Assembly (NCBI GenBank): GCA_903859705.1
Contig: CAIONQ010000077.1
Location: forward strand, 1-64,000
Length of the DNA stretch: 64,000 nucleotides
Direction: 5' to 3'
DNA from: an uncultured Chthonomonas sp.
Lineage (GTDB): Bacteria > Armatimonadota > Chthonomonadetes > Chthonomonadales > Chthonomonadaceae
Positions 21,543-49,998 of this stretch are shown here, piece after piece. The translations under genes and the position numbers were made by a program. Every line of letters begins with the position of its first letter. Positions within the stretch are counted from its first letter, which is position 1. Under the pieces are notes generated by a model that made no database searches, was not told the DNA's origin, and saw nothing but the letters and a program-made list of their open reading frames with translations.

Positions 21543-24500
21543 TTATGGTATTGAAACCTTGAGCGGAGCAAGCCACCCATTTCGGTATGCATCCAGGCGA
21601 GAAGGAGGAACAGCATCGCCACGGAAGAGGTATAGCATGCTGACAGTTTGCGCTGGGGATGCGTTATAACCTACCCCGCCCCAGTTTGAACCGGCATCCC
21701 AGTAAGTTATGTCGCTTACAGGAGTTAGCGCGATGCAGGCCATCCACCATTTTGCTCCTGTTACTGAGTACCATCTGGGCTTTTGCGATACACCGCTAAC
21801 TCCTTCCCCATCCCCAGTTCCATCTATCAAAGCCTGCACTCCCCCGCTATCCTGATACTCACCCTTCAGAGTAAAGTAGGCTCGGCTCATTACTCCATAA
21901 CCGCGATTTGCGGAGCCTGTTTCTACTACTCCGGCGGGATAGAACGTGTAGGTTCTATGAACAGTAACATCGCTCTGGAGGCGCTTCTGAATATATACTA
22001 CGGTGCGAACAGGGCCATCCTCTAAAACTCGCATGCGCGTTACAGTTCCGGGTTCATCGGTCCAACCCGTTGTGGCGGATGAGTACATGAGTTGCGAGAT
22101 AGCAGCATTAGAGTTCACACTTACATTGCGCAGAACGCCCGCATCCAGGTGAACACTGTAATGTGTGCCTGTATACATCGAAGACAGTTCATTCCACTGA
22201 CATCCGCTGGATGGCATCATACGATTAGAAGCGTTAGACATGTTGTAACGCGCTATGAGGCGAACCGACCCATTGGCTTCGTATGCCCCTGGCACGATAG
22301 TAATAACCGAGCGCTGATCCCCGGTGGGATCACACACCTGGGTTGGAAGAGCCTTCCCGGCAAGTGAGATACGAACGGAATTTAGATCAACTGCACGGTT
22401 TTCAATTGCAATTATTACCATTGGGTTCTGGCGAGGAATGGCACCCATGGGCACCTCTACATTGGTAGTGTATCGCCAACGTGACGGATTGTCTCCAAAT
22501 TCGGCGGATGCTATTGCCACATTATTGCTAGTGCATCGCTCCAGGCGCACAGGTACTGCATACGCTACGAGTTGGTGCCTTCCATCGAGGCGGGCAGTAT
22601 AGATTGGGATTTCCAGCAACACGTTCTGCCAGGCGGTGAGGTTCACCTTGGTTGTTCCCAGCCGTAAATCGTTCCGATTGTGATCTGCATAAATGCTAAC
22701 GGTAGTTGCAACTGGATTAGCCCCGTAGTTGCGGATCCGTAACCGTGCAATTCGCTTCGAATTGGCTGCGGTACCTGTTATATGAAATTCACTTACCTGA
22801 AGATCTGCCTGATTAAGCGCAGAACCAGTGACCAACTCGGCAGATTGCGGTCCACTAAAGTCAATGCTCTGTTCACCAGGCAGAAACGCACGGTCTCGTT
22901 GCCCTGTGTTATTCAACTTGTACAGAACAACCTTGCTGCTACCCCACCCTGCTGGCAAATCTGCTCTTGTGAACTTAACTGTTCTCCCACAGACATGGAT
23001 TTTAGAGTGGGTTGCGTCTATGGTGTGGATTGCAAGGCTGCCCGCCAGTGTTTCTACATAGCGAAATCCCGGTGCCTGGATGCGTGAAACCGTTTTTCCG
23101 TTCTCAATAATCCTGGTTTGTAATCTGCCCGGGCCATCTACAATCCAGCCATTTTGCGGAATCATAAATGTCTTGCCATGGAACGAGTATTTTTTGTCGG
23201 CTTCTCCAAAGTTGACAATGCAGGAAGTTCCATTCGCAAATTGGGTTCTCTGAAGAGCTCGGTCCGAGGTTAGGAATTCGTGGTCTATCATGGCACTTTC
23301 GGCAACAAGTGCCTGAACGCCGCAAACATTTCGAACTGTACTCAAGAATAGATCCCGTTGTTTTATCCACGCGCCTCCAGAATCTGCCCAGAGCATTGGC
23401 ATCGTTCCATACAGTACGTTGAACGCCATTTTCTTTTGTAAGGTGTCGGGGGCTGCATCCAGTAGATAGTCATTTGAATCCCCCCAATACCAGGTAGAAA
23501 CCACGCAATCATGAAACACGAGCTCCCATAGTGGAACTCGGCTCTCATGCCCCATGCTCCAGTTCCGGTATACGTCCCAAGTTTCGGTGCCATAGGGTCC
23601 TTCAAACTTCTCTTGCTGGTTTTTGGGGTGAATGAGATGCCCGGCCGGCCACGCAAAACGGTTGCCACTCATCATGCCTTCTATATAATCCAGGTACGGT
23701 ACTCCCCACCAAATCCCGTGTTCACCACCAACTACCAGATGATTGGATCGAACGGTTCGGAGCAAGTCTTCACCGGCCTCACGTTTTTGAGCCTTTACCA
23801 GCGGGTGAAGTGGGTCATAACATTCGTATAGCCCTTCGGCCGTAGTCACATCTATAAATCTACCGAGGTATGGGTATTGCTTCAGGACTGCAGGAATAAC
23901 GTTAGCGGCTGCCTTTGCCCATAACGCCGGGCACCTCTTCATGTACTGCGTTTTCTTATCGTATGTGAGCCAGGCTTCCATCCTCTTACCATCCGCCCGT
24001 ACGGCCGCAGCCCCAGGCAGCTCATCGTGGTTAGAGTCGGGGCCTTTGCCGGTGCCAACTGCAAGAATGTCCGTGTAGTTATCGTACTCAGAGCCCAGAT
24101 ATCCCAACGCCTGAATGCTGCGCAGTTCTTCGGGAGTTGTGCGACCGTGGATGAGCATCTTTTCTACACCCGCAGTACGTGCCTCTTTTGCGAAGCGCAA
24201 CGAAGCATCTCCCCATACATCTGGCGCCCCAAATAGGCGCCTAATCTCAGGGTTCGTCTCTAATTTCTCTGTAAATGTCTTCAGCCTTCCGTGTTCCCGC
24301 ATCCAATCTCTACAGGCAAGTGCCCCCGCAACATAGCCGCCACTGGGGCTAAAGCGTAACAGTACCGAGCGCGGTGGCCCAAATGCTCCCTTTACGGGCT
24401 GCCAGCCGAGCAGTGGAGCATAAATTTGCGTGCCATTCTCCCGGGGGCTTCTGCGGCACTCAATAAATGCGTCGTCGGAGCTTTCCAGAATTACGGCACA

Positions 24501-25058
24501 GTTCGGCCCATTTTCTCCGGAGCAGATGCTAACCAGTGGCAAATCGAGCCGCCCGCCGTCAAACCAGGTGCGCGGTAGCGATTCTCCTGTTAATTGATAG
24601 AGATGGCCGTCGCAGTAGTCGGCCACGGCCATATATATAACTGTGCTTCCAATGTTTGGTACAGGCAAGAACATCAATCCGCCGCCGTTATACCCGGCAT
24701 CATTTGCGGGATTCATCTCAACTGAGAAACGTAAGTCAGCTTTACCGGGCAAAAGGTCCAGGCGCACCTGCATTGCGCTCTGCTTAATTCCACGATCAGA
24801 CTGCAGCCACGATATTGATGACGGGCCCTCACTCTTAAGATCCATCAACGGACTATGGCCAGTGGCGGGTGCGGAAGGGCGCCAGAGCACATGTTTGCGA
24901 AGATCTTCAATAATTACCCCGGGAGGTGAAGAAGTTACCTGTACACGTAACAGGTTGTTCTGTACCACAACCGTTTGTGCAGGCACACTGACACAAGTGA
25001 GGAGAAACAGCACCCCATAAATTGCTGCAGCCAATGGCTGCACGAATGTGTAACGCAT
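21543..25058 (-). CDS. Large secreted glycosidase-like protein with CARDB domain
   Basis: The start MRYTFVQPL is preferred because GGAAGG lies 11 bases upstream and the next 27 residues make a clean signal peptide (AAAIYGVLFLLTCVSVPAQ); an ATG 42 bases earlier has no ribosome site. Residues about 30-260 are beta-rich, resembling the sandwich domain of GH101/DUF5696-like proteins. Residues about 270-640 look like a TIM barrel with several acidic motifs (FIDVTTAEGLYECYDP, VVGGEHGIWW). Around 750-850 a CARDB-type Ig-like domain is visible (ADLQVSEFHITG, RIRNYGANPVATTVSIYAD), and about 170 further C-terminal residues are unassigned. Total 1171 residues. A carbohydrate-cleaving role is inference; no catalytic pair is certain. 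Confidence 0.65.
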   Translation of the reverse strand: MRYTFVQPLAAAIYGVLFLLTCVSVPAQTVVVQNNLLRVQVTSSPPGVIIEDLRKHVLWRPSAPATGHSPLMDLKSEGPSSISWLQSDRGIKQSAMQVRLDLLPGKADLRFSVEMNPANDAGYNGGGLMFLPVPNIGSTVIYMAVADYCDGHLYQLTGESLPRTWFDGGRLDLPLVSICSGENGPNCAVILESSDDAFIECRRSPRENGTQIYAPLLGWQPVKGAFGPPRSVLLRFSPSGGYVAGALACRDWMREHGRLKTFTEKLETNPEIRRLFGAPDVWGDASLRFAKEARTAGVEKMLIHGRTTPEELRSIQALGYLGSEYDNYTDILAVGTGKGPDSNHDELPGAAAVRADGKRMEAWLTYDKKTQYMKRCPALWAKAAANVIPAVLKQYPYLGRFIDVTTAEGLYECYDPLHPLVKAQKREAGEDLLRTVRSNHLVVGGEHGIWWGVPYLDYIEGMMSGNRFAWPAGHLIHPKNQQEKFEGPYGTETWDVYRNWSMGHESRVPLWELVFHDCVVSTWYWGDSNDYLLDAAPDTLQKKMAFNVLYGTMPMLWADSGGAWIKQRDLFLSTVRNVCGVQALVAESAMIDHEFLTSDRALQRTQFANGTSCIVNFGEADKKYSFHGKTFMIPQNGWIVDGPGRLQTRIIENGKTVSRIQAPGFRYVETLAGSLAIHTIDATHSKIHVCGRTVKFTRADLPAGWGSSKVVLYKLNNTGQRDRAFLPGEQSIDFSGPQSAELVTGSALNQADLQVSEFHITGTAANSKRIARLRIRNYGANPVATTVSIYADHNRNDLRLGTTKVNLTAWQNVLLEIPIYTARLDGRHQLVAYAVPVRLERCTSNNVAIASAEFGDNPSRWRYTTNVEVPMGAIPRQNPMVIIAIENRAVDLNSVRISLAGKALPTQVCDPTGDQRSVITIVPGAYEANGSVRLIARYNMSNASNRMMPSSGCQWNELSSMYTGTHYSVHLDAGVLRNVSVNSNAAISQLMYSSATTGWTDEPGTVTRMRVLEDGPVRTVVYIQKRLQSDVTVHRTYTFYPAGVVETGSANRGYGVMSRAYFTLKGEYQDSGGVQALIDGTGDGEGVSGVSQKPRWYSVTGAKWWMACIALTPVSDITYWDAGSNWGGVGYNASPAQTVSMLYLFRGDAVPPSRLDAYRNGWLAPLKVSIP

Positions 25059-25229
25059 AGTAACCAGGACCTTCCCAATACTCTTAAAGATGGTTGGCAT
25101 CTAAGGTGTTAAGAACCACTTGCTGGAACTCCTGCACCGTCGAACCGACGGCAATGAATGCAACTAAAAAATAATTTCAAAATATTTGCTTTCTCATTTA
25201 TCACTTGTAAAGGTTCCGGCGATAGAGTT

Positions 25230-25258
25230 TTGATAGCACGAAAGAACTGTGTTATAAT
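25230..25258 (+). promoter_or_regulatory. Strong sigma-70-type promoter of a small-RNA/small-ORF unit
   Basis: TTGATA at 25230-25235 and TATAAT at 25253-25258 are separated by exactly 17 bases. This is among the best sigma-70 matches in the window. Transcription should begin near 25265, giving a leader of about 80 bases with two perfect small hairpins: CGGGAG-TTG-CTCCCG and CTGTG-CCG-CACAG. Confidence 0.75.
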
Positions 25259-25343
25259 GGTGGCAGAAGCGGGAGTTGCTCCCGGCCACTGTGCCGCACA
25301 GCTTTCGTAATATCCAATTTATGTGAAAGGAGGAGGGCGGAAA

Positions 25344-25484
25344 ATGTTGATATCCAGATTGCAAAACATCGCAGATGCTGTTGCGTGGGACCTTAGTGGC
25401 CGAAACGCAGCGCCAAATATGGCCCAGCATTGCGTCCGACCTCGTCCATCACACAGGAGAGTATCTCGAAACCCCGAATTGTAG
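25344..25484 (+). CDS. Possible 46-residue small protein of unknown function
   Basis: An ATG is preceded by AAAGGAGGAGGG, a very strong Shine-Dalgarno region, about 6-10 bases away. The reading frame begins MLISRLQNIADAVAWDLSG and ends RVSRNPEL; it is basic in its second half (about seven Arg) and has no membrane segment. It sits inside a short unit bounded by a strong promoter (25230-25258) and an intrinsic terminator (25568-25607). I do not recognise it. It could be a real small protein, or the RNA itself could be the product with incidental translation. It is not the N-terminus of the downstream sigma factor, because the terminator lies between them. Confidence 0.45.
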   Translation: MLISRLQNIADAVAWDLSGRNAAPNMAQHCVRPRPSHRRVSRNPEL

Positions 25485-25567
25485 CGGCGGTTATGTCGAT
25501 CTCTCGCAGTGATTGTGTTTCCTACTGCAGAGTTATGCGCACAGAATTAGCGCAGCTGAAGTTAAGG

Positions 25568-25607
25568 GAAGCCTCTGGTGGACAAAACCAGAGGCTTCTC
25601 TTTTTTT
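25568..25607 (+). terminator. Strong intrinsic terminator of the small-RNA unit
   Basis: GAAGCCTCTGGT pairs perfectly with ACCAGAGGCTTC (12 bp) around a 7-base loop, followed by TCTTTTTTT. It would end a transcript of about 340 bases begun at the 25230-25258 promoter. Confidence 0.9.
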
Positions 25608-25657
25608 ATTTCGCGGCAGCGCAGAAAGTATGCTGCCGCAGGGGATCGACACAAATA

Positions 25658-26185
25658 ATGTCTCATGTATACGAGCGCGCCAGAAATGGCGATAAGAGTG
25701 CAGCTGAAAGCGTTTGTACCCAGCTTCAGCCCCGCATTGAGAAGATGGCCGGTTATTTCGGCAAACAGTGCGGAATTGACTCCGATGATCTTAGGCAGGA
25801 AGCATGGGTAGCAGTGTTGGAAACACTTCCGGCACTTGATCTAACCATTGGTTCTCCAGAGCAGCATCTGCTGAAGCGCGCACGGTGGCGTATTCTGGAT
25901 ACTATTCGCTACCAACGCAGGCGCCAGCACCACGCACTGGAAGATGAAGAGAACAGCGCCGGAAGTTATCTTGATATCCACAGCACATTCGATATGGACC
26001 GCCTGCTGGCACGCCTATCTCCGATTCAGAACCGCATTTTGCGGTGCCTGATGGAAGGATATACGTGGCGAGAGGCCGGCGCGATTGTTGGATGCACATC
26101 TCCCAACGTTGCATACCATGTACGGAAGATCAGGGAAATCTACGTGGAGATTGAAGGGGTCGGGGTTGATGAACACACCAGGTAA
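25658..26185 (+). CDS. Small sigma-70-family RNA polymerase sigma factor
   Basis: The start MSHVYERAR is chosen because a longer upstream reading crosses a strong terminator and has no family character. The 175-residue protein has a region-2-like segment (DSDDLRQEAWVAVLETLPALDL, HLLKRARWRILDTIRYQRRR) and a region-4 helix-turn-helix (LSPIQNRILRCLMEGYTWREAGAIVGCTSPNVAYHVRKIREIY), with no region 3. This is the size and plan of ECF-like or phage-like sigma factors that direct RNA polymerase to a small regulon. No anti-sigma gene is adjacent. A hairpin terminator follows. The ribosome site is weak (AGGGGAT, 13 bases upstream). Confidence 0.8.
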   Translation: MSHVYERARNGDKSAAESVCTQLQPRIEKMAGYFGKQCGIDSDDLRQEAWVAVLETLPALDLTIGSPEQHLLKRARWRILDTIRYQRRRQHHALEDEENSAGSYLDIHSTFDMDRLLARLSPIQNRILRCLMEGYTWREAGAIVGCTSPNVAYHVRKIREIYVEIEGVGVDEHTR

Positions 26186-31743: not shown

Positions 31744-33588
31744 ATGACCGCAGCCACAGACACCTTACCGTCGCCCCGAAGTCGTGCCCTACCCTTTGAT
31801 GCTTTTGTGCTGAACCGCGTGATTGCGGAGATGCGACCACAAATTATCGAGGGGCTTGTACAGGATGTTCGGCAGCCCACTCACCAATCCATACAACTTC
31901 GCATTCATGCACGTGGCCACAGTCATCTGTTGCTGATTTGCCTGGATGCGAAGTGGTTCAGGATGCACCTCAGTGCCGCTCGACTGCCGAACGCACAAAC
32001 ACCATTTTCTTTTTGCACCGCATTGCGCCGGCATATTGAAGGCCGCAAACTGTCTTCTATCGAACAGATTGGCTTTGACCGTTTTGTAAAGCTCACGTTT
32101 ATCCCTACGAGTTCCGCACAGTCAGATGCGGGAGACAATGACGACATTGCAGGTGAGCGCTATCTGTATCTTGAGTTGATGGGTAAACATAGCAATGCCA
32201 TCCTTACAGATCAAAACAATAGGATAATCGACTCTGCAAGAAGAGTTAGCCACCGAATTAATCGTGTTCGTGAAACGCTTCCCGGGCTGCCCTATTTATT
32301 TCCGCCTGGTATTGACGCATCTGCCTTGCCTGCACCACGGCAATTTGCCACCGATGTGATGCACGCGCTGAGTGGCAACCTTACAACACACAACACTGCC
32401 AGTATTGCTAAGGCCATCCGCGCAGCTAGCCCAACAATTCCGCCGTTTTTAGCAGAGGAAATGGCGTTGCAGGCGTCTGGCGGTGACCCGAGCGATCAGC
32501 GGTGCTGGATTTCCCATTTGATGGAACCCGAAGATGCGCTTTGTGCTCTCTTCGAGGTGTATTCAGGCTCGGTATCATCCGCTATCGAAACCATTTCACC
32601 AGCGGGTGTGTCTGCATACCCAATGCCGCTATTCTCTCTCGCAGCCGCTTCACAAAGGTCTACAGCAAGCCTGAATGCTGCGATAGACCGTGGGACGGCG
32701 CTTTCAATTAAGCAAGAAGCTGCTTCACAGTCTACATCCAGACTGTTTGCTGATATGCAGGCTGAGCTGGCTCACCTCCAGCGAACCGCAGAATCAATGC
32801 TTCAAACAGCCGCAGAAGGTTCGCGAGCAGATGAATACAACCGAAGTGCAGACCTGATTTTCGCCTTCTTGGGCCGAATTCCGGAAGGTGCATCCGTTGC
32901 GGTAGTGCCTGATCTTTATGATTCAGAACAGAAGGACACCCAAATTAATCTGGATCCGCAACTTACACCGCAACAAAACGCGACTGCATACATGGAGAAG
33001 GCAAAACTGGCACGAGACAGGCAAAAGCGCGCAGAGGCACGCCTGGATGCGCTCATGCCACGAATCGAAAAGTTTGAAGAGGCAAAACAAAAGGCAACGT
33101 TGCAGCTTGAAGGCCCGGATGCAACAGCGAAGATGGCAGATGCTATAAGAGAAGAGCTGACAAGCGCGGGGCTATTGCGCAGGCCAGCTCTTATACATGC
33201 CAGTGGCGAGAACCCGTTTGCAGGCCACAAAATAAGAAGACTGCACTCACCACAGGGTTACGAGGTTCTGCTTGGAGAGACCGCCACCGCGAATGATTAT
33301 CTAACACAACGCATTGCGGCATCGGGAGATATATGGATGCATGTGCGTGCGTCTACCAGCGCACATGTTGTTATCCGCACTTCCGGCAAACCAGAACTGC
33401 TGCCCCACTCTGTTGTACTGTGGGCTGCCGGACTTTGCGCTCAGCACAGTGATCAAAAGCACTCATCTCTGGTGGCGGTAGATTATACTCAGAAGCGTTA
33501 TGTACGAAAACCAAGGGGATCTAAGGTAGGATTTGTACTTTACACTCATGAGAAAACGGTGCACGTCGCACCTGAAGATCAACTGTAA
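31744..33588 (+). CDS. rqcH: RqcH/NFACT family ribosome-quality-control protein
   Basis: The 614-residue protein has the NFACT order: N-terminal domain (about 15-180), helix-hairpin-helix and coiled-coil middle (about 220-460), and the C-terminal NFACT-R domain (about 475-610; NDYLTQRIAASGDIWMHVRA, HVVIRTSG). The Asp-Arg pair needed for alanine tailing in bacterial RqcH is present as Asp112-Arg113 in GFDRFVKL. RqcH binds stalled 50S-peptidyl-tRNA complexes and adds C-terminal alanine tails for degradation. No Shine-Dalgarno is near the ATG; TACAAT at 31733-31738 ends five bases before it, so the transcript may be leaderless. Confidence 0.92.
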   Translation: MTAATDTLPSPRSRALPFDAFVLNRVIAEMRPQIIEGLVQDVRQPTHQSIQLRIHARGHSHLLLICLDAKWFRMHLSAARLPNAQTPFSFCTALRRHIEGRKLSSIEQIGFDRFVKLTFIPTSSAQSDAGDNDDIAGERYLYLELMGKHSNAILTDQNNRIIDSARRVSHRINRVRETLPGLPYLFPPGIDASALPAPRQFATDVMHALSGNLTTHNTASIAKAIRAASPTIPPFLAEEMALQASGGDPSDQRCWISHLMEPEDALCALFEVYSGSVSSAIETISPAGVSAYPMPLFSLAAASQRSTASLNAAIDRGTALSIKQEAASQSTSRLFADMQAELAHLQRTAESMLQTAAEGSRADEYNRSADLIFAFLGRIPEGASVAVVPDLYDSEQKDTQINLDPQLTPQQNATAYMEKAKLARDRQKRAEARLDALMPRIEKFEEAKQKATLQLEGPDATAKMADAIREELTSAGLLRRPALIHASGENPFAGHKIRRLHSPQGYEVLLGETATANDYLTQRIAASGDIWMHVRASTSAHVVIRTSGKPELLPHSVVLWAAGLCAQHSDQKHSSLVAVDYTQKRYVRKPRGSKVGFVLYTHEKTVHVAPEDQL

Positions 33589-49862: not shown

Positions 49863-49998
49863 AAGGATTAGCGGCGTTGAGAGCCGGGAAAGGCGTAACA
49901 GCAGGCTGGCGAACCGTGTCAGAGAGGAGACTCAGCAGCACTAAGTCAGTCCCCTGTGTACGCCCTACCCCCGGCTCTGAGCGCCGCTGATCCTTTGA
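49863..49998 (+). ncRNA. ffs: Signal recognition particle RNA (small bacterial type)
   Basis: The universally conserved SRP hairpin is readable: GTGT (49916-49919), CAGA (49920-49923), stem GAG with tetraloop GAGA (49927-49930) and CTC, AGCA (49934-49937), GCAC (49938-49941). This has the same order as E. coli GUCAGG...GGAA...AGCAGC. The ends pair in a long stem: AAAGGATTAGCGGCG near 49863 with CGCCGCTGATCCTTT near 49983-49997, continued by GAGAGCCGGG with CCCGGCTCT. A TATAAT box at 49851-49856 fits as -10; no good -35 was seen. The stem is followed by TTTTT, giving termination. The place just before dnaX-ybaB-recR matches the known gene order in Bacillus and many others. The exact ends are estimates. 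Confidence 0.88.

Follow-up and report, generated by a model that had tools for sequence, protein, structure and literature searches.

Results

The locus and its sigma factor gene

The subject of this report is a compact transcription unit in a 64,000-nucleotide stretch of a Chthonomonadaceae (Armatimonadota) contig, hereafter the window, in which all coordinates are given. The unit, examined at 25230–25607, lies between a gene for a GH129-like protein (21543–25100, minus strand) and a gene for a small sigma factor (25658–26185, plus strand), two neighbours that agree with their description in a first-pass annotation of this DNA. The interval 25197–25657 probably serves this sigma factor gene as a regulatory leader, and the product of the gene would respond to translation stress.

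The sigma factor, a protein of 175 amino acids with regions 2 and 4, is of the extracytoplasmic function (ECF) type by Pfam and NCBIfam profiles: Sigma70_r2 matches above its cut-off (E 7.7e-9), Sigma70_r4_2 falls slightly under its own (E 2e-4), and TIGR02937 also matches, above cut-off in the orthologue at locus L017. Matches to designed armadillo proteins in a phmmer search were judged spurious. Orthologues occur in 65 of 291 Armatimonadota genomes, as a single copy in most carriers. An adjacent anti-sigma factor is typical of ECF sigma factors without being obligatory; none is encoded next to this gene, its neighbours in the window being the GH129-like gene and a QueF-like gene.

On the plus strand, the leader opens with two promoters. 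P1 (25197–25224) reads TTTATCA-N16-CGATA, for which the consensus in the phylum is TTTAGCA-N16-C[G/T]ATA, and is proposed as the promoter through which the sigma factor regulates its own gene. P2 (25230–25258), the proposed basal promoter, is of the sigma-A type, TTGATA-17-TATAAT, with 11 of 12 consensus bases and a TG preceding the -10 element. Since a counterpart of P2 (TTGAAG-16-TATACT) lies at the equal position in a congener (L003), the presence of two promoters, basal P2 and conserved P1, is likely. The first-pass annotation had recognized P2 as a near-perfect promoter, and every other feature that it named is present as well, but it missed the better-conserved P1; because P1 sits just 5' of P2, the unit begins about 33 bases earlier than had been thought.

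Two short G+C-rich segments follow, CGGGAGTTGCTCCCG (25270–25284) and CTGTGCCGCACAG (25289–25301), each able to form the hairpin predicted for it, and inverted repeats were seen shortly 3' of the promoter in many relatives, by eye and unquantified. Next come a very strong Shine-Dalgarno (SD) sequence, AAAGGAGGAGGG (25326–25337), and a 46-codon upstream open reading frame (uORF), MLISRLQNIADAVAWDLSGRNAAPNMAQHCVRPRPSHRRVSRNPEL (25344–25484), which contains a segment, GTCCGACCTCGTCCATCAC (25434–25452), that pairs with the SD of its own reading frame in the minimum free energy fold (duplex energy -19.6 kcal/mol). The intrinsic terminator, a proposed attenuator, has a 12-bp perfect core inside a 16-pair stem (25564–25602), followed by T's to about 25606; its folding energy is -28.4 kcal/mol, as compared with -17.5 for the best of 20 shuffles, and in the congener L003 the stem is altered on both sides. 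The sequence GGTGRA on the loop side of this hairpin (25568–25598 in the window) is kept in the Chthonomonadaceae loci L003, L005, L010, L008, and L009 despite the changing stem. A second hairpin, GCGGCAGC...GCTGCCGC (25613–25639), adjoins the ribosome-binding region of the sigma gene.

Conservation of the leader across the phylum

The primary sequence of the unit is not conserved, as a nucleotide search matched none of 100 relatives, and it belongs, as had been proposed, to no known family: no Rfam covariance model, including those for 6S RNA and riboswitches, matched it at gathering or at permissive thresholds. Elsewhere in the window, positions 49882–49979 match the bacterial small signal recognition particle RNA (Rfam RF00169).

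What is conserved is the architecture, which is plain from aligned upstream regions of the sigma orthologues. Across Armatimonadota families, the order is TTTAGCA-N16-CGATA, a strong SD at the equivalent place, a uORF of 15–58 codons with its stop before the sigma gene, often a hairpin with T's, and then the sigma gene, with the SD and the reading frame retained in position while the sequence drifts. The exact promoter TTTA[GT]C[AG]-N16-CGATA stands 5' of 32 of the 59 non-redundant sigma loci, and one-mismatch variants, mostly CTATA, are found at about ten more. At two loci of family f15 (Armatimonadaceae, going by one named member), L404 in genome G068 and L405 in G108, the CTATA form lies about 750–860 bases 5' of the sigma gene, therefore implying a much longer leader. 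Thus a lack of conservation in relatives, which the first-pass annotation held would count against it, is found for the nucleotide sequence but not for the architecture.

Two roles had been put forward for the unit, a leader controlling the sigma factor and an independent regulatory RNA with a small peptide. The first is borne out by the same order of parts preceding sigma orthologues in many families of the phylum; the second lacks support at this locus, since it is ahead of the sigma gene that the unit keeps recurring. A reading of the unit as a free-standing gene for a small RNA or a small protein, stopping at its terminator and leaving the sigma gene to a separate, later promoter, is distinctly improbable. 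A promoter and a strong terminator within the unit do favour that reading, as do five similar units in f15 that lack a conserved downstream gene, but only some 50 bases separate the terminator from the start of the sigma gene, no promoter match is found between them, the unit precedes the sigma gene throughout the phylum, and its peptides are poorly conserved.

That a metabolite riboswitch or another structured RNA family controls the sigma gene, with the reading frame incidental, we regard as very improbable. Such an element would fit the G+C-rich 5' hairpins and the folding of the RNA, since both the 342-nt RNA of the window unit (z -5.05) and the leaders taken together (Stouffer -7.4) are more stable than shuffles. 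A ligand pocket, however, would hardly be expected to lose its primary sequence even within a genus, as happens here, while SD and reading frame are kept despite the drift, and Rfam offers no match.

Conservation of the leader peptide is weak. The recurring SPR/GS motif may reflect no more than the RNA element that pairs with the SD, given that the reading frame of GCCTCGTTTCGGC differs among clades. In the leader peptides, Arg and Ser both stand at about twice their assumed background frequencies, and the macrolide stall motif R/K-x-R/K is no more frequent than composition would predict (20 vs 16 expected, p 0.16).

Predicted RNA structure of the sigma leaders

By duplex energy, across 33 leaders, pairing between the SD region and the 3' part of the uORF that it serves is stronger than pairing with dinucleotide-shuffled versions of that uORF (Stouffer Z -9.3), and with one leader per clade, a calculation done by hand, the value is about -8.4. 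The flanks of this helix differ between clades while the pairing is kept, as with TCAGAAAGGAGGCGAGC and GCTCGCCTCGTTCTGA in L098 and with CCGAAAGGAGGTAC and GTGCCTCGTTTCGG in L083. The count of ungapped helix pairs is only slightly higher than in shuffles (11.0 vs 10.5), indicating that the helix is bulged and that the claim of a helix relies on the duplex energies. The SD of the sigma gene itself showed no excess pairing with the uORF of the kind known from topAI (Z -0.6). A strong terminator is present in the window and in about 14 of the 33 leaders; the loci that have one include L003, L005, L010, L017, L019, L021, L090, L091, L092, and L098.

The promoter motif and a candidate regulon

To judge exact matches to the P1-type motif in whole genomes, the reversed pattern served as control. 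The 65 genomes that carry the sigma gene contain 121 exact matches as compared with 19 for the control, while the 226 genomes that lack it contain 45 and 46. About 30 of the 121 precede the sigma gene itself and the remainder lead to other genes. Within the window, the occurrence in the sigma leader is the only one at up to one mismatch. From this co-occurrence, we infer that the sigma factor reads P1-type promoters. The same pattern would arise if the motif served a different sigma factor or regulator that occurs in these genomes too. We find that alternative improbable, since most carriers have the motif ahead of this sigma gene, non-carriers have it at no more than background frequency, and ECF sigma factors are usually autoregulated.

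The genes directly 3' of the motif were listed and then checked with Pfam. Confirmed in this way were HflX (in three genera), RsgA (in three families), and Tpt1/KptA (in two distant genomes), together with MutS2, NFACT/RqcH, RtcB, a T4-type RNA ligase, TROVE/Ro60, RIO1 kinase, and YceD; GNATs, AAA ATPases, and ABC transporters are also among the genes that follow the motif. For the genome to which the window belongs, the list allowing one mismatch includes Tpt1/KptA, HflX, RtcB, and RsfS. A directed test covered the upstream regions of named orthologues and allowed up to one mismatch. The motif stands before HflX in 11 of 27 sigma carriers, where permuted motifs put the chance expectation at about 0.03, and in none of 29 non-carriers (Fisher p 9e-5); it precedes MutS2 in 6 of 26 genomes and RsgA in 4 of 29, with a chance expectation again of about 0.03. 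The functions of these motif-bearing genes are the splitting, rescue, and silencing of ribosomes and the repair of cleaved RNA.

At loci such as L158, L195, L198, L199, L203, L204, L207, L210, L216, and L234, a start codon lies only about 8–13 bases after CGATA; the mRNAs of these targets thus look leaderless, a form that would be apt for translation while ribosomes are under stress. At seven loci (L223, L226, L219, L220, L239, L207, with a 353-amino-acid protein, and L374), the protein encoded right after the promoter has neither a Pfam match nor an NCBIfam match over cut-off, and these proteins are candidate new rescue or repair factors. An open reading frame at 31744–33588 of the window looks by eye like NFACT/RqcH, a ribosome quality control protein.

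tRNA operons in family f15

The same promoter also precedes tRNA clusters in f15 genomes G042, G101, G106, and G107 (L199, L204, L207, L216, L222, and L231), with a short leader reading frame and a terminator standing between the promoter and the tRNAs. Several of these reading frames are rich in the amino acids of the tRNAs behind them. The cluster of tRNA-Tyr and tRNA-Pro has the leader peptide MNTFFYQPSNPPPPPALS; ahead of two tRNA-Gly and a tRNA-Ala, 16 of the 32 residues after the start are Gly or Ala; the leader of tRNA-Ile and a CAU tRNA has five Ile, and that of three tRNA-Leu has four Leu. The leader at L216 does not match its tRNAs. When leaders were shuffled among the six clusters, the enrichment in cognate amino acids had p 0.004, a value for a small set with assumed amino-acid backgrounds.

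The five f15 units without a conserved gene downstream (L205, L211, L217, L237, and L245) consist of promoter, SD, a 14–17 codon reading frame, and terminator. Their SD hairpin covaries, being GGAGGC/GCCTCC except in L217, where it is GGGGGC/GCCCCC. They are possibly a trans-acting or decoy version of the leader.

The tRNA operons bear on what the leader of the sigma gene would sense. The uORF could act purely through masking of its SD together with translational coupling or Rho. The terminator would then be secondary, and the signal would be how many ribosomes are available or how they initiate, not stalls in elongation. This is a variant of the proposed leader control, not exclusive of it, and we consider it somewhat unlikely. 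In its favour, pairing of the SD is the best-supported structural element and is present where no terminator is seen, the pairing arm ends about 12–18 bases before the end of the uORF in some 14 leaders, and several regulon mRNAs begin within about 12 bases of the promoter and look leaderless. Against it stand the very strong terminators right before the sigma gene in the window and several relatives. The terminators between uORF and tRNAs in the tRNA operons, with several uORFs rich in matching codons, point to elongation stalls instead.

Discussion

We suggest that the short reading frame probably lets troubled ribosomes switch the sigma gene on. In the working model, P2 supplies basal transcription and the sigma factor would drive its own promoter P1, as the co-occurrence of motif and gene implies. 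In unstressed cells, the uORF would partly hide its own SD by means of its 3' part, and transcription would stop at the terminator, to judge by the predicted structures. Ribosomes that stall or initiate abnormally on the uORF, which would be translated, may relieve termination and so open the way to the sigma gene, with ribosome-targeting drugs or damaged tRNA as the presumed trigger. The sigma factor would then amplify itself and turn on the ribosome-splitting, rescue, and RNA-repair genes that sequence statistics associate with the same promoter.

Several observations weigh against this interpretation. One-mismatch matches in the window's own genome are moderately above the control (42 vs 25), and the link between the sigma factor and P1-type promoters is a correlation. 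The uORF peptides are weakly conserved, with ratios of nonsynonymous to synonymous polymorphism (pN/pS) of 0.5–0.95 in the informative clades, which suggests that what counts is translation as such, more than its product. In the window itself the pairing of SD and uORF is modest (z -2.2). A clear intrinsic terminator is seen in under half of the leaders, so those without one must work otherwise, by Rho or by translation. A search of 12 leaders for an upstream antiterminator complementary to the 5' arm of the terminator gave no excess (mean z 0.06), which lowers the claim of a classical attenuator and leaves that of a uORF-controlled leader as it was.

The Armatimonadota leader resembles WhiB7 in its logic and the TrcR regulon in its content, by analogy. 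The gene for the regulator WhiB7/WblC is under positive feedback. In Actinobacteria, the WhiB7 leader has a uORF and a terminator, and the WhiB7 regulon includes hflX (PMC10727445), so that both the uORF-leader logic and the presence of HflX, here with the motif upstream in part of the genomes, are shared. WhiB7, however, is an iron-sulphur activator of the WhiB family that works with sigma-A/B, and membership in that family is excluded here because the regulator is a different protein, a sigma factor with a Sigma70_r2 domain. WhiB7 leaders are also described with an antiterminator overlapping the uORF, whereas none was found in the Armatimonadota leaders, and RNA repair and tRNA operons extend the Armatimonadota regulon beyond that of WhiB7. 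In Anabaena, the regulon of TrcR, induced by ribosome-targeting antibiotics, comprises a tRNA operon, rtcB, rsgA, and GNAT, ABC, and AAA genes (PMC10272220), a content similar to that of the sigma regulon, but TrcR is a ribbon-helix-helix repressor, and the text of PMC10272220 mentions neither a uORF nor a leader.

Two further systems share single elements. The toiL uORF of Escherichia coli topAI-yjhQP senses several ribosome stresses, the uORF pairing with a ribosome-binding site and transcription terminating prematurely (PMC12121999). There, the pairing is with the ribosome-binding site of the downstream gene and termination is Rho-dependent, whereas the Armatimonadota uORF pairs with its own SD, not that of the sigma gene, and the window has an intrinsic terminator. 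In enterobacteria, the RtcR-controlled RNA repair operon places RtcB under stress control (PMC9879122, PMC10272220); RNA repair by RtcB under stress control is the likeness, and the difference is that RtcR is a sigma-54 enhancer-binding protein.

The broader proposal, to which we attach about as much belief as doubt, is that Armatimonadota own a dedicated translation-stress sigma factor, with a uORF leader that senses ribosome trouble and a regulon for ribosome rescue (HflX, MutS2/RqcU, RqcH, RsgA, and RsfS) and RNA repair (RtcB, Tpt1/KptA, RNA ligase, and Ro60), to which some members add tRNA operons, each behind its own leader reading frame, several of them rich in matching codons. No published description of the sigma factor, its promoter, or its leader was found in open papers, subscription papers being outside the search. 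A sigma factor dedicated to ribosome rescue and RNA repair would, to our knowledge, be the first known, and it would come from a phylum in which genetic work is scarce. If the proposal is correct, one regulon would unite stalled ribosomes and damaged tRNA, which are mostly treated as separate problems, and the uORF-sensor logic of the WhiB7 type would have arisen a second time around a different protein. The leader reading frames matched to tRNA operons would be ready sensors of individual tRNAs, and new factors for rescue or repair might be sought among the poorly characterised genes of the regulon.
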